DNA of 64,000 bases from Roseivivax halodurans JCM 10272 (GTDB lineage: Bacteria > Pseudomonadota > Alphaproteobacteria > Rhodobacterales > Rhodobacteraceae): contig NZ_JALZ01000003.1 of NCBI RefSeq assembly GCF_000521785.1, positions 62,001-126,000 on the forward strand. The letters are read 5' to 3'. Each line of letters starts with the position of its first letter. The stretch's first letter is position 1. Below are positions 27,002-62,418 of the stretch, piece by piece. The notes below the pieces were generated by a model, which made no database searches, was not told the DNA's origin, and saw only the letters and a program-made list of their open reading frames with translations. A program made the translations under genes and the position numbers.

Positions 27002-28126
27002 TCACTCGCGATGGGCGAGCAGGACGCGGGTCACGAAGGGTCTGTGCGGGCGCGGCGTGCTGATCCGGGTGAAGCCGGCCTTGCGGCAGAGGGCGGCGAT
27101 CTGCTCCGCGGAGCGGACGGTGCCGGTGCGCATCGCCATCGTGTAGAGCGCGTAATAGACGTCCCCCGCCCGGTCGGGACGCGCGCCGCCCGACATCGGT
27201 TCGGAGACGAGAAGCTTTCCGCCCGGGGGAAGCGCGTCGTGGACGCGGGCCAGGAGCGCGCGCACGGTCTCGTCCCGATGGTCGTAGAGCACCCGGATCA
27301 GGGAGATCGCGTCGGCGCCGTTTGGAAGGTCGTCGTCCCGGAAGGAGCCGGGTGTGCAGGCGATCCGGGACGCGACGGGACTGCGGGACAGGCGATCCTG
27401 CGCGGCATCCACCACCTGCGGCAGGTCGAGGAGCGTGACCCTGAGCTCCGGATGCCGGTCCGCGGCGGCCTCGGCGAAGACGCCGGTGCCGCCCCCGACA
27501 TCGAGGAGGTGGCGGACGCCCTTGAGAGGCGCCGCGGCGAGCGTGTCCTCGGCCACGAGGCGCTGGCTTTCGGCCATGAGATGCGAGTACCGGCGAGCGA
27601 GCGCAGGATCCTCGGCCCGTCCCGCGCCGAAGACGTAGGGCCAGACATGGGCGAGCTCGGTCTCGGTCTCGCCGCGCAGGAAGGCGACCGGGTCGGCGAG
27701 ATCGCGGTAGAGCACGTCGTGATGGGCGATCATGTCCTCAAGCCCCGGCACCGAGATCAGCGCGGCGCCGCGGGGCGTGAGGTCGAAGCGCCCGTCGCGG
27801 CGGCGGCGCAGGAGGTTCAGCGCGGCGCCGGCCTGAAGAAGGCGCTGCATCCGGTCGGCCGGAATGCCGGTGGCCGCGCCGAGGGTGGCGGCGTCCTCGG
27901 GCGCGTTGGCCAGACGGTGGCAGATGCGCAGCTCGACGAGGGCGGCGAGGACCTGACTGGCGACGAAGCCCTGGACGAGGTCGAAGAGCGCCTCGCCCTC
28001 GCGGCGCACGAAGGGCCGTGTCAGGGGGAAACGCGCGGCAAAGGACTGGAATCGCGCGGATGAGACGAGATCGAGAAACCGGCCGCGCAGACCCTGCCGG
28101 GGCGCGAGATCGGCCGGGGCGGCCAT
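27002..28126 (-). CDS. crtF: Demethylspheroidene (hydroxyneurosporene) O-methyltransferase
   Basis: CrtF (374 residues) methylates the 1-hydroxyl of acyclic carotenoids using SAM, giving the methoxy group of spheroidene. It has an N-terminal dimerisation helix region and a Rossmann SAM site with [14 protein letters not shown] near residue 200 followed by [11 protein letters not shown], and the late SEPMSGG motif. The ATG overlaps the crtE stop by 1 nt (TGATG). It is followed by the regulated bchC promoter, and transcripts from crtE are likely to read through into bch and puf. Confidence 0.95.
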
Positions 28127-28995
28127 CAGGCCTGCGCGCCGACCGGGATGAGGCGGTCGGCCTGGGCGCGGACCATCTGCGCCAGGGCTGCCTCGCCCGG
28201 ACAGGACGGGATCGAGGCGATCGCGCCCGAGAGGATGTCGTTGAGCCGGGCGACAGCCCCCGCGAGGCCAAGCTCGGCGACGGCATTGGGGCGGCCGTGG
28301 GCGGCGTCCTGACCGGCGGGCTTGCCCATCTGAGCCTCGGTCTCGCAGGCGTCGCGCAGATCGTCGGCGACCTGGAATGCCTCTCCGATGAGGGCGCCGA
28401 GATCGAACCAGGGTTCGGGCTCCTGCCCTGCCGAAAGCGCGCCCATCTGCGTCGCGGCGACGAAGAGCGCCCCGGTCTTGGAGTGGTGATAGGCGGAGAG
28501 ATCGATAGTTGCCTCGCTCTCCCAGCCCTGCCCGGCGCAGATCCCGCCCGGCATTCCGGTCTGGCGAGCAAGGACCTCGATCAGCTCTACGGCGCGCACG
28601 GGATCCTGAACGGCGGCGCGGGCCAGCGTCTCGAAGGCGAGAATGATCAGCGAATCGCCGGTCAGGACGGCGAGCGGTTCGGAGAAGGCGCGGTGAACCG
28701 AGGGTTTGCCCCGGCGCAGCGCCGCATCGTCGAAGCAGGGGAGGTCGTCGTGGACAAGGCTGGCGCAGTGGATGAGCTCGAGCGCGGCGGCGGCGGCGTC
28801 GGAGATCGCCGGCCGGTCGTCGCCGCAGGCCATTGCCACCGACAGCAGGATCGTCGGCCTGATCCGCGCGCCGCCGGGCGTGCAGGCATAATGGAGCGCG
28901 TGCGAGAGCTGCTCGGGGGCGCCGCTCCGCCCTCGCGGCGCAGCCCGCGTGAGGGCGGTCGTGACGGCGGCATCGATGCGATCGGTCAGGCCCAT
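28126..28995 (-). CDS. crtE: Geranylgeranyl diphosphate synthase
   Basis: CrtE (289 residues) extends farnesyl to geranylgeranyl diphosphate, the precursor of both carotenoids and the bacteriochlorophyll tail. The first aspartate-rich motif is [10 protein letters not shown] near residue 85 and the second is ADDLRDA near 190; GGARIRP and CASLVHDD also fit polyprenyl synthases. It is first in crtEF-bchCXYZ and divergent from crtD, sharing a 102-nt regulatory region with two PpsR-type boxes. Confidence 0.95.
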
Positions 28996-29026
28996 GGCGG
29001 TCTCCCGGCTCCGGGCAGCGGCGCCA

Positions 29027-29087
29027 TGTCAGTCGCAGCTTACACCCATGTGTAAAGAATACTGGACAGCCTTGTGGGACCTGTCAA
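29027..29087. promoter_or_regulatory. crtE/crtD divergent control region with two PpsR/CrtJ boxes
   Basis: Two exact TGT-N12-ACA sites lie at 29027-29044 and 29051-29068, 6 nt apart, matching the spacing of the first two boxes before bchC. On the minus strand TTGACA (29082-29087) with a weaker CAGTAT 17 nt further on could serve crtE. Both divergent genes are probably repressed together under oxygen. Confidence 0.85.
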
Positions 29088-29097
29088 CAATTGTCCC

Positions 29098-30669
29098 ATG
29101 TCTGCTGGCTCTCGCCCTCTCGTAGTCTCGGACCCCGTGATCGTCGTCGGCGCGGGGATCGGAGGGCTCTGCGCGGCGCTGTCATTGGCGAGCGACGGGG
29201 TTCCGGTGAGGGTGATCGACAGCGGGACCGCGCCCGGCGGGAAGATCCGCGAGGTCAACGGCGCGCCGGGCGGCCCGACGGTGCTGACGATGAAATGGGT
29301 GTTCGACGCGCTCTACGCGGCCGCGGGCGAGTCGCTGGGCGACCGTCTGCGGCTCGTGCGGCAGGACGTGCTCGCGCGGCATTTCTGGCGCGACGGGGCG
29401 GTGCTCGACCTCCATGCCGATCCCGAGGCGAGCGCGGCGGCGATCCGGGAATTCGCCGGGGCGCGGGGGGAATCGGAGTTCCGCGCCTTCTCGGCCCGGG
29501 CGAAGCGGCTCTTCGAGGGATTCCTTGCCCCGGTCATGACGGCGCCGCGGCCCGATCCCGCGGGGATCGCGCGCGCGCTGGCGCGGCAGCCGCGGCTCGT
29601 ACGCGACATGGCGCCGGGGCGGTCGCTGGCGGGGCTCCTCGAGCGGAGCTTCACCGATCCGCGGCTGCGGCAGCTCTTCGGACGTTATGCGACCTATGTG
29701 GGCGGCTCGCCCCATGCCTCCCCGGCGCTCCTGTCGCTGATCTGGGAGGCGGAGGCGGCGGGGGTCTGGACCGTCGCGGGCGGGCTGACCGCGCTCGCCG
29801 CGGACATCGCGGGCCTGATCGAGGCGCGCGGCGGGGAGGTGATGCTCGGCACGACGGTCGACCGGATCGAGATGGACGGCTCGGGCGTGACCGGCGTGCG
29901 TCTTTCGGATGGGCGCGTCTGCCGCGCGAGCGCGGTGGTCTTCAACGGCGACCCGCGGGCGCTCGCGACCGGGCTCCTTGGCGATCACCTGACGGGGATC
30001 GCCAAGGCAGCGCGGAGGCGGCCGCGCGCGCTCTCGGCCCGGGTGTGGTCCTGCCGGGGCATATGGACGGGGCCAGAGATCCGTCATCACAATGTCTTCT
30101 TCCGCGACGATCCTCGACCGGAGTTCGAGGCGATTGCGGAAGGCCGCATCGCGTCCCGGCCGACACACTATCTCTGCGCGGCGGATAGGGGGTTCGGCTC
30201 CCCGCCGCCGTCCGACGAAGCCTTCGAGATCATCATCAATGCGGCGCCCCTCACGCAGCACCCCCAGGAGCATGAGGAATTTGCGGAATGTCTGACACGC
30301 ACGCATCGGACACTGGAGACGTTCGGGGCCCGGATCGATCCGGCGCCGGAGCCGCCCGCGTTGACGACGCAAGAGGATTTCGAAGCCCTGTGTCCGGGGA
30401 GCGCCGGTTCCCTCTACGGGCAGAGCCCGCACGGGGCGATGGCGGCCTTCGCCCGCCCGACGGCCCGGACGAAGGTTCCGGGCCTCTACCTCGCGGGGGG
30501 CGGGGTGCATCCGGGTCCGGGGGTGCCGATGGCGGCACTTTCCGGACGGCACGCGGCCGAGGCGATAAGGACGGACCGTGCTTCGCGCTCGCCGTCCCGC
30601 CGGACGGCTACGCGTGGTGGTATGTCGACGGGATCAGCGACGACGGCACCCGGGCGATCTCGGTCATAG
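29098..30669 (+). CDS. crtD: 1-hydroxycarotenoid 3,4-desaturase
   Basis: CrtD introduces the C3,4 double bond during spheroidene synthesis. The product is a CrtI-like FAD amine-oxidase-fold enzyme: the dinucleotide motif VIVVGAGIGGLCAA is at the N-terminus, and GLYLAGGGVHPGPGVPMAALSG near the C-terminus is the signature end of the family. The ATG at 29098 lacks a good ribosome site; a GTG at 29137 immediately before the Rossmann strand is an alternative. The last 30 or so residues after EAIRTDRAS are arginine/serine-rich and overlap the crtC coding region in another frame. Stop TAG at 30667-30669. Confidence 0.93.
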   Translation: MSAGSRPLVVSDPVIVVGAGIGGLCAALSLASDGVPVRVIDSGTAPGGKIREVNGAPGGPTVLTMKWVFDALYAAAGESLGDRLRLVRQDVLARHFWRDGAVLDLHADPEASAAAIREFAGARGESEFRAFSARAKRLFEGFLAPVMTAPRPDPAGIARALARQPRLVRDMAPGRSLAGLLERSFTDPRLRQLFGRYATYVGGSPHASPALLSLIWEAEAAGVWTVAGGLTALAADIAGLIEARGGEVMLGTTVDRIEMDGSGVTGVRLSDGRVCRASAVVFNGDPRALATGLLGDHLTGIAKAARRRPRALSARVWSCRGIWTGPEIRHHNVFFRDDPRPEFEAIAEGRIASRPTHYLCAADRGFGSPPPSDEAFEIIINAAPLTQHPQEHEEFAECLTRTHRTLETFGARIDPAPEPPALTTQEDFEALCPGSAGSLYGQSPHGAMAAFARPTARTKVPGLYLAGGGVHPGPGVPMAALSGRHAAEAIRTDRASRSPSRRTATRGGMSTGSATTAPGRSRS

Positions 30670-35852: not shown

Positions 35853-37664
35853 TCAGAGATCGCGCAGGCGCATGGCGGCGTCGCGGGTCTCGGCGATGCT
35901 GGCTTTCAGCGACGCGACGTCCGGTCCCGCCGCGAGCACCGCACGGGAGGAGGTGGGGATGACCCGCCGACCGGCGCCCGCGAAGATCCGGGAGAGGTCG
36001 TCGAGGCTCGCGCCCTGCGCGCCGATGCCGGGGACGAGGAAGAGCGCGTTCGGCATGAGCGAGACCGTCCTCGCCGCCTCGGCGCCGAGCGTCGCGCCGA
36101 TGACCGCGCCCACGGGGCCGACCGGGGCATTCGGGGCGAGGCGGTCGTTCTCGGCCGCGATGGCGCGGGCGAGCGTGTCGGCGACGGCCTCTCCGCCCGC
36201 CTCGGCCGATTGCAGCGCGGCGCCCTCGGGGTTCGACGAGCGCACGACGACGAAGGTGCCGGTGCCGGTCGCGGCGGCGTGCTCGTGGACCGGGGAGAGC
36301 GTGCCCGCGCCCATATAGGCGCTGAGCGTCATGGCATCGGCGCCGAAGCCTTCGGGGCCGAGCCACGCGCGCCCGTAGGCGGCGACGGAATTGCCGATAT
36401 CGGTGCGCTTGGCGTCAGCGAGGGCCAGGACGCCGCGGGCCTGCGCGCCGGTGATGAGACGCTGCAACTCAAGCAGGCCGGCCGGACCGAAGGCCTCGTA
36501 AAATGCGACCTGGGGCTTAAGGAGCGCGACGCCCTCCTCGATGGCCTCGAGCGTGATCGACACGAACTCCCGCAGGCCCGCGACCGATACCGGCAGGCCC
36601 CACGCCTCGAGAATGGCGGGAGAGGGATCGGCGCCGAAGCAGAAGGGCGAACGCTCCGCCGCAAGCGCCTCGAAGCGGGAGGCGAAGTCGGCGGCGGGGT
36701 GCGGGGCCGGCGCGGCGGGTGCGGGCCGGGCGGCCTGCTGCTGCGCGACGTCGCCTGCGACGAGGTCGCGGTAGAGTGCGCGGATGCGCTCCGTCACCGG
36801 GCGGGTGCCGTCGCCGATCGGGTTGCCGTCGATCGAGGCGACGGCGGTCTGCGCGCCGAACGTGCCGGTGAGGAAGGCCTCGTCCGCGCCGTAGGCCTCG
36901 GCGAGCGAGAAGTTCTTCTCGCGCACCGGGATGCCGTTGGCGCGGCAGAGGTCGATCACCTTGGCGCGCGTCACGCCGTTCATGCAGTAATCGCCGGTCG
37001 AGGTCCAAACCTCGCCGCGGCGGACGATGAAGAAGTTGCAGGCGTTGGTGGTGTTCACGAAGCCCTGCGGATCGAGCATCAACGCCTCCTCGGCGCCCGC
37101 CGCCTCGGCCTGCACGCAGGCGATGATGCAGTTGAGCTTGGAATGGCTGTTGAGCTTGGGGTCCTGGCTGTGCGGCAGGCCGCGGACCTGCGGCACGGTG
37201 GCGAGGCGGATGCCGCGCGCCGCCAGAGTCTCGGCCGGTTTGGAATGCTCTACGATGATCACGAGGGTGTTGCCGGAGGTGCTGAGGCCCGGATGCTGGA
37301 ACGGCTTGTCCTTGAGACCGCGGGTCATCATCAGGCGCGCATGGGCGTCCGATCTCATGCCGTTGGCCGCGGCGGTGGCGTCGAGGGCGTCCTTGAGGCC
37401 GGCGCGGTCGATGCCGGGATCCATGCCGATGGCGCGGCATCCCTCGAAGAACCGGTCGAGATGGTCGCCCAGGAACGCCCATTCGCCGTCATGGAGCCGC
37501 AGCCCCTCCCAGATCCCGTCGCCGAGGAGGAAGCCCGCATCGTAGACCGAGACCTTGGCGGCGCTGCGGTGCAGGAGCCTGCCGTTCACCCAGATCAGGA
37601 TGTCGCGGTTGCGGGCGTCCTCGGTGGCGCTGTGGGTGCTGTGGCTCTTCTGGGCCTGGGTCAT
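35853..37664 (-). CDS. Fusion: class IV aminotransferase + orotidine-5'-phosphate decarboxylase
   Basis: One uninterrupted 603-residue frame joins two enzymes. Residues about 20-305 are a class IV PLP aminotransferase (branched-chain/D-amino-acid type): VYDAGFLLGDGIWEG, a probable PLP lysine K176 in SHSKLNCI, ACNFFIVRRG and FGAQTAVASIDGNPIGDG. An alanine/proline linker follows (about 310-326). Residues 327-603 are type 2 OMP decarboxylase (PyrF): FCFGADPSP, ADAKRTDIGNS with the catalytic D417, K419 and D422, VVVRSSNPEG and FLVPGIGAQG. PyrF makes UMP. No Met lies in or near the linker, so separate translation is unlikely. Start ATG at 37664; an upstream in-frame ATG at 37778 is less likely. 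Confidence 0.9.
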   Translation of the reverse strand: MTQAQKSHSTHSATEDARNRDILIWVNGRLLHRSAAKVSVYDAGFLLGDGIWEGLRLHDGEWAFLGDHLDRFFEGCRAIGMDPGIDRAGLKDALDATAAANGMRSDAHARLMMTRGLKDKPFQHPGLSTSGNTLVIIVEHSKPAETLAARGIRLATVPQVRGLPHSQDPKLNSHSKLNCIIACVQAEAAGAEEALMLDPQGFVNTTNACNFFIVRRGEVWTSTGDYCMNGVTRAKVIDLCRANGIPVREKNFSLAEAYGADEAFLTGTFGAQTAVASIDGNPIGDGTRPVTERIRALYRDLVAGDVAQQQAARPAPAAPAPHPAADFASRFEALAAERSPFCFGADPSPAILEAWGLPVSVAGLREFVSITLEAIEEGVALLKPQVAFYEAFGPAGLLELQRLITGAQARGVLALADAKRTDIGNSVAAYGRAWLGPEGFGADAMTLSAYMGAGTLSPVHEHAAATGTGTFVVVRSSNPEGAALQSAEAGGEAVADTLARAIAAENDRLAPNAPVGPVGAVIGATLGAEAARTVSLMPNALFLVPGIGAQGASLDDLSRIFAGAGRRVIPTSSRAVLAAGPDVASLKASIAETRDAAMRLRDL

Positions 37665-37814
37665 GTGAAATCCTGCCTTTTGCCGCGCGATGATGCCGCC
37701 CCGCACGCGCGGCGCAAGCGATGCCGAAACGCGGCCCCGGGAGCAATCGCGGTGTGCGCCCTTTTGTGCGGTCGGCATCTGCCTCGCGAAGAAGCCGGCA
37801 CCCCGCGCCCGCCC

Positions 37815-61555: not shown

Positions 61556-62418
61556 GCGCGGGCGACCTTCGCGCGCCGTCTGTTCCATCGCGGCGGTGGC
61601 GACATCTTGGAGGAGGCGTGCGCGCGGTGGTCGCGGGAGTTCTGCTTCTGGTGGGGGCGGCGTCCGGCGCGATGGCGGACACGCTTCTGTCGCTCGGATC
61701 ACGTCAGGACGGGCGCAACTGGGATGCGGTCGGCCGGATCGAGATCGCCGACCGGTCCTTCTGTACCGGTGCCCTGATCGCGCCGAATCTCGTGCTGACC
61801 GCCGCCCACTGCCTCTACGATCTTGGGACCGGTGCGCGCGTGGCGCCGGGGGACATGCAGTTCCGGGCCGGCTGGCGCAACGGCCGGGCGGTCGCCTACC
61901 GCCAGGTGCGCCGCGCCGTGCACCTGCCCGACTTCGTCTATGGCGAACCCTCGGGATCCGGCCGCGTGCGCCACGACGTGGCCCTGCTCGAACTGGACTC
62001 TCCGATCGACACGGGCGCGGCCATGCCCTTTCGGACCGACCGCAGGCCGCGCACCGGCGACGAGATCGGGGTCGTCTCTTACGCGTACGACCGGGCCGAG
62101 GCGCCGAGCGTGCAGGAGCGCTGCCGTGTCATCTCGCGCCAAGAGGGGGTGCTCGTCATGTCCTGCGCGGTCGATTTCGGATCTTCGGGCTCGCCGGTCT
62201 TCTCGTTCGCGAGCGGCGAGGCGCGGATCGTGTCGGTGGTGGCGGCCAAGGCGCAATCCGAGGGCCGACCGGTCTCGCTGGGCATCGGGCTCGACGGGCC
62301 GGTCGCGGCCCTCCGCGCGATGCTCGACGCCGGTCGCGAGCGTCCGGGTGCGCCCGATCTCACCTCCGTGGCCGCCGGAACCGGTAGGGATAGCGGGGCG
62401 ACGGTCGTCCCGCGGTGA
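61552..62418 (+). CDS. Trypsin-like serine protease, secreted
   Basis: A 288-residue S1-family protease. A signal peptide or anchor lies around residues 23-42 (AVVAGVLLLVGAASGAMA). The catalytic triad is seen as His in LTAAHCLYD, Asp in RHDVALLEL and Ser in GSSGSPVFSF; one cysteine pair around the histidine is partly present (FCTG, AHC). The start overlaps the glcF stop by 4 nt (ATGA), an odd partner for glycolate oxidase. An internal start further down would shorten the long N-terminus. Confidence 0.9.
   Translation: MSAGDLRAPSVPSRRWRHLGGGVRAVVAGVLLLVGAASGAMADTLLSLGSRQDGRNWDAVGRIEIADRSFCTGALIAPNLVLTAAHCLYDLGTGARVAPGDMQFRAGWRNGRAVAYRQVRRAVHLPDFVYGEPSGSGRVRHDVALLELDSPIDTGAAMPFRTDRRPRTGDEIGVVSYAYDRAEAPSVQERCRVISRQEGVLVMSCAVDFGSSGSPVFSFASGEARIVSVVAAKAQSEGRPVSLGIGLDGPVAALRAMLDAGRERPGAPDLTSVAAGTGRDSGATVVPR

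Follow-up and report, generated by a model that had tools for sequence, protein, structure and literature searches.

A type 2 orotidine-5'-phosphate decarboxylase fused in frame to a lysine-less transaminase homologue in Roseivivax halodurans

Introduction

OMP decarboxylase fused to OPRT is known. In Roseivivax halodurans JCM 10272, an enzyme of the same name forms the tail of a protein whose first half looks like an aminotransferase. The gene lies in a stretch of 64,000 nucleotides (positions 62,001 to 126,000 of contig NZ_JALZ01000003.1), which was analysed as a whole and is called the window here. How did a UMP-forming enzyme come to sit behind a transaminase-like protein, and what does each half do now? 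The explanation that we consider likely is that an imported type 2 pyrF (pyrF2) was captured by a transaminase-like neighbour and now supplies the UMP step, that the native type 1 enzyme (PyrF1) no longer suffices, and that the two halves are not functionally coupled.

The fused gene

An aminotransferase homologue and a type 2 PyrF (PyrF2) are fused in one frame. The sequence-only reading had claimed such a fusion at 35853-37664; its coordinates were right, Pfam models match both parts in the same frame, and the strand, which it had not given, is minus. The features, in window coordinates, are as follows.

35853..37664, minus strand: fused CDS of 603 codons, with ATG at 37664 and TGA at 35853-35855.
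36750..37664, minus strand: N-terminal half, residues 1-305, a homologue of class IV aminotransferases that lacks the PLP lysine (PF01063, 141.7 bits; 7z79, E 1.5e-85).
37149..37151, minus strand: the codon for Asn172, which aligns with the Schiff-base lysine of 5cm0, 5e25 and 5mqz.
36687..36749, minus strand: Ala/Pro-rich linker, residues 306-326, stop-free in all frames and with no in-frame start.
35901..36686, minus strand: C-terminal half, residues 327-588, type 2 OMP decarboxylase (TIGR02127, 242.2 bits; 10 of 10 checked signature residues).

Translation of the 603 residues meets no internal stop. Pfam assigns residues 50-277 to Aminotran_4 (PF01063; 141.7 bits, cut-off 28.5), which places the first half in the fold family, and residues 341-588 to OMPdecase (100.5 bits). 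The NCBIfam model TIGR02127 (pyrF_sub2) covers residues 327-588 at 242.2 bits, well over its cut-off of 110.6, and spans model positions 1-259 of 261. The best solved relatives are 7z79 (residues 6-315) and 3v75 (residues 327-589). GC at the three codon positions is of the coding type in both halves (0.65/0.48/0.93 and 0.74/0.57/0.90). These two strong family matches in one frame, together with the codon-position GC, are not a product of chance. Frame length was rejected as evidence, as this GC-rich window has frames of up to 1873 aa.

An alternative ATG at 37778 would give a longer frame of 641 aa. In eight genus orthologues of the first half, the position of 37664 is the frame start in six and an in-frame Met in the other two, and the purine-rich stretch AGGCAGGA lies upstream of the ATG at 37664. 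A scan for promoters and terminators returned no promoter and one terminator-like site, against 0.9 expected. Elsewhere in the window, at 28126-30669, the translations resemble those of a polyprenyl synthetase and of a desaturase like CrtI, which suggests carotenoid or photosynthesis genes.

The decarboxylase half and the native type 1 PyrF

Both the window protein and its counterparts in the other three carriers of the genus keep 10 of 10 signature positions of PyrF2, and the five charged ones are invariant in all 87 alignment rows. We take these motifs to be the Asp, the Lys, the Asp-x-Lys-x-x-Asp stretch and the phosphate-loop residues. Judged by these residues, the C-terminal half would be a working OMP decarboxylase, converting OMP to UMP and CO2. 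The pyrE gene is separate, with one PyrE match over cut-off (108.3 bits, cut-off 106.8).

A check for a second, stand-alone pyrF, which the sequence-only reading had proposed, did find one: a native type 1 gene with 4 of 11 signature residues changed. Its product, the second PF00215 protein of the genome (on contig C7), has 229 aa; it passes TIGR01740 (106.6 bits, cut-off 92.3) and misses PRK00230 (162.9 of 193). The gene lies between genes read as clpB and dinB, a pair found in all five neighbourhoods examined, and both of these neighbouring proteins were recovered for each of the nine pyrF1 loci.

Across the genus, the state of PyrF1 follows the presence of PyrF2. The eleven signature positions are kept in all five non-carriers, and some of them are altered in each of the four carriers. 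PF00215 scores are 155.8-175.7 bits in the former and 116.6 (the window's genome), 86.1, 63.8 and a split 31.4/28.9 in the latter, and the end branches of the PyrF1 tree measure 0.62-0.88 in carriers against 0.026-0.28 in the others. The changes differ from genome to genome. In the window's genome, an Asp of the tetrad is replaced by Glu, a Gly by Asn, a Gln by Asp and the phosphate-site Arg by Gln. The G296 copy has one Lys changed to Arg and lacks the PGVRP loop and the Gln. In G297, two Lys are changed to Arg, Asp to Gly and His to Asp, while G300 has Lys to Arg, Lys to Thr, Asp to Gly and His to Ala; in both, PGVRP is changed and the Gln is missing. G297 is R. jejudonensis, and its PyrF1 frame (L146:6946-7700) has no ATG, GTG or TTG between the upstream stop and the first strand.

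None of the four altered frames is interrupted, which may mean that a non-catalytic use persists or that little time has passed since release. The ratio dN/dS was tried as a measure of decay and rejected: PyrF1 pairs that include a carrier give 0.26-0.55 and non-carrier pairs 0.05-0.30, but pairs of the transaminase-like gene and pairs of PyrF2 give 0.21-0.66. As it fails to separate altered PyrF1 from working genes, the case for PyrF1 rests on residues, scores and branch lengths. In the window's genome, we infer from these that PyrF1 is inactive. Some activity is possible, since this copy keeps 7 of the 11 signature residues, including the lysines and the first two aspartates, in an open frame. 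With active-site residues lost from the native enzyme, the PyrF2 half is probably the sole OMP decarboxylase.

In the family, 4 of 289 matching genomes (G022, G126, G220 and G256) score below the window's PyrF1 in PF00215, and the matches in G256, G022 and G220 are partial. In G126, a 99% complete assembly, the sole OMPdecase-family match (L159:1498-2642) reads as a hexulose-phosphate synthase and adjoins a SIS-domain gene, so no PyrF is seen in that assembly.

Outside the genus, three family genomes (G078, G245 and G259) combine a PyrF2 match with a PyrF1 that reads as intact. The arrival of PyrF2 is thus not always paired with the loss of PyrF1. These assemblies are fragmented or have a PyrF2 interrupted by a stop, and two of the three PyrF2 share just 28-31% identity with that of the window. 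The G259 copy (a Rhodovulum MAG; L136:5735-8385) has one in-frame TAG; in its vicinity are another member of the OMPdecase family (127.4 bits) and what reads as a radical SAM/B12 protein gene, with the intact PyrF1 on another contig.

These observations bear on a different explanation, in which UMP still comes from the native PyrF1, and the fused PyrF2 is merely carried along, being neutral or playing an accessory part. Its merits are an open PyrF1 in the window's genome that reaches 116.6 bits, retains most of its signature and passes TIGR01740, as well as the three carriers outside the genus that keep both PyrF types. However, the four substitutions fall at Asp, Gly, Gln and Arg of the signature and the score lies below the PRK00230 cut-off, whereas PyrF2 keeps all ten of its positions and the three sister carriers have even worse PyrF1 copies. 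We regard this explanation as unlikely.

Origin of PyrF2

In a tree of 30 PyrF2 rows, the G296 copy stands apart from those of the other three genus carriers, and a tree of 85 rows agrees on G296. Constraining the four genus copies to one clade was rejected on the 30-row tree, where long branches are in play (p-AU 0.0045). The copies of the other three carriers group with that of a Rhodovulum MAG (98/95). Type 2 pyrF thus probably entered the genus twice, as far as these trees tell, and with two sources of PyrF2 in the genus, the change in PyrF1 would go with PyrF2 twice. As for the genus itself, ClpB alone left the tree unresolved, and a tree of four concatenated proteins unites the carriers, though weakly (64/84).

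PyrF2 relatives occur in 32 plasmid records, 10 of them typed as conjugative and 3 as mobilizable, and an Agrobacterium copy is found near dihydroorotate dehydrogenase genes. A mobile source of PyrF2 is plausible; its outside origin and the order of events are inferred. On a mobilizable plasmid of Paracoccus (L201), a PyrF2-type gene adjoins an IS6 transposase gene.

The transaminase-like half

The sequence-only reading had taken the first half for a complete class IV aminotransferase with its PLP lysine in SHSKLNCI. This assignment did not hold. In a gapless alignment to 5cm0, 5e25 and 5mqz, their lysine (IKSLNYLNN) falls over Asn172 (LNSHSKLNC), the SHSK lysine aligns with a tyrosine, and Thr205 replaces the glutamate of their VSEGS/ISEGS stretch. 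We take the lysine position to be that of the Schiff-base lysine and the glutamate position to be the one facing the pyridine nitrogen. Asn and Thr occupy these positions in 37/37 orthologues, namely the best-scoring ones, 8 from the genus and 29 from the family. The SHSK lysine is also K in all 37, and a shifted PLP lysine four residues on is possible; 7z79 has Arg at that place. None of the NCBIfam transaminase models listed scores over cut-off for the first half, the best reaching 202.2 of 363. Given Asn172 and Thr205, the first half is a member of the fold family that lacks the tested features of a working transaminase.

The family to which it belongs is widespread, with matches at E up to 1e-60 in 67 of 100 family genomes. 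In the window's genome, two other matches reach 33% and 27% identity and a third, partial one 37%, so the fusion is the sole orthologue of the first half found there. The first half would keep the role of its conserved family, probably one other than ordinary transamination.

Distribution of the fusion

TIGR02127 has matches in 4 of the 295 genomes of the family and 4 of the 9 of the genus; in the class, 21 of 385 genomes have one over the cut-off. The open frame around PyrF2 has 674 aa in the window and 217-366 aa in the other 20 class carriers. The fusion was seen in the window's genome only: in one of the four genus carriers, one of the 21 in the class sample and none of 80 further loci. 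These 80 were kept from a collection in which 273 had a relative and which may omit records near the window's genome; the first half was not found near PyrF2 in the DNA examined around them. In the three other genus carriers (G296, G297 and G300), the neighbours of pyrF2 differ and the first half lies elsewhere, in G296 on the same contig about 50 kb away.

The sequence-only reading knew of no described case, and this agrees with the absence of the architecture from the other carriers and the 80 loci. In the part of the open-access literature that our search reached, no description of an aminotransferase joined to a type 2 PyrF was found. Each domain is of a known family; what is new to us is the architecture, along with its setting.

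Other long frames occur around PyrF2. In G300 (L133:8539-9888, minus strand), PyrF2 stands behind an N-terminal stretch of 102 residues with coding-like GC and no ATG at the domain start. This stretch has no Pfam match, one match in the genus (E 0.0016) and none in 295 family genomes in a search run without a positive control. The G300 protein is possibly a second, different fusion, or else its start is a GTG in frame, roughly 20 codons upstream. In L010, L067 and L076, the frames around PyrF2 measure 621, 1149 and 579 aa and contain no aminotransferase match.

Two readings would give the fusion a function of its own. In the first, a ligand (PLP, an amino acid or a nucleotide) binds to the transaminase-like half, which regulates the decarboxylase or determines how it oligomerizes. 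A first half that is conserved in two thirds of the family genomes sampled, with lysine and glutamate replaced throughout, is what would be expected of a binding rather than a catalytic domain. Yet the fusion occurs in a single genome, PyrF2 lies apart from the first half in three other genus carriers, and the Ala/Pro-rich linker is of no conserved kind. Coupling of this sort is quite improbable. The second, more speculative reading sees in the lysine-less fold a regulatory or scaffolding domain of an essential decarboxylase that ties UMP synthesis to a ligand, in a genus that repeatedly captures PyrF2 as the C-terminal domain of local proteins, G300 being the second case; we likewise give it little chance. 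The sequence-only reading had left the choice between coordination of two pathways and a lost stop that was then kept. The latter fits better, because the fusion is confined to one genome and, wherever another genus member has both partners, they are separate.

The junction

Codons 290 to 360 are free of stops in all three forward frames. In frame, no ATG, GTG or TTG lies between GTG codon 290 and GTG codon 368, and the first CTG is codon 357; the other frames offer a TTG near codon 333 and a GTG near codon 354, both past the domain start at 327. As TIGR02127 begins at residue 327, a separate PyrF2 could not start normally. The stand-alone orthologues of the first half in eight other genus genomes end approximately where the linker begins.

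An assembly or sequencing error that merged two separate genes through a missed stop or a frameshift is very improbable: the evidence is a single draft assembly of one strain in 149 contigs, but a missed stop alone would not yield two ordinary genes, since the junction is stop-free in all frames and the PyrF2 start would still be absent, and GC at the third codon position of the linker is high (0.91). A single product would be expected from the fused gene in vivo.

Proposed path and significance

Capture of an imported pyrF2, the reading that we favour, would have proceeded as follows. A type 2 pyrF of outside origin landed behind the transaminase-like gene and then came to lie in frame with it. 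Loss of the upstream stop and of the pyrF start would have left one polypeptide, whose translation begins where that of the transaminase-like gene did. The C-terminal half of this polypeptide would act as OMP decarboxylase, probably the only one in the cell, and selection for UMP would maintain the fusion because PyrF1 is insufficient. What the fusion contributes would be expression signals and not channelling, with the halves probably uncoupled; coupling between them is presumed absent.

If so, the replacement of an essential enzyme has been caught in progress. The genus seems to have received a non-orthologous OMP decarboxylase from outside on two occasions. Different mutations are altering the native copy where it stands, and in one species the incoming enzyme now forms the tail of a protein to which it is unrelated. 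This makes it possible to test how freely essential enzymes relocate and fuse. The locus also draws attention to a conserved and widespread family whose annotation as transaminase follows its fold and which is devoid of the lysine.

Comparison with known systems

The closest solved relative of the first half, 7z79 (residues 6-303, E 1.5e-85), likewise has Asn at the lysine position, while 9j32 is the same chain with Lys there. The protein of these two entries stands alone, with 317 aa, unlike the fused first half; no paper on 7z79 or 9j32 came up in the part of the literature that the search reached. Branched-chain aminotransferases (5cm0, 5e25, 5mqz) share the fold family and align without gaps around the lysine, but they have Lys and Glu where the fused protein has Asn172 and Thr205.

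For the second half, type 2 PyrF (TIGR02127; solved relative 3v75) is matched over the whole domain with all ten signature residues in common. The frames of the other carriers measure 217-366 aa in the class sample and 309-451 in the genus, whereas the PyrF2 of the window is fused to a transaminase homologue and has no start of its own. The bifunctional OPRT-OMPDC (UMP synthase; NF004034) likewise joins an OMP decarboxylase domain to another domain. The window protein differs in its partner: Pfam and NCBIfam find no OPRT domain in it, and it scores 38.8 bits of the 656 needed for NF004034.
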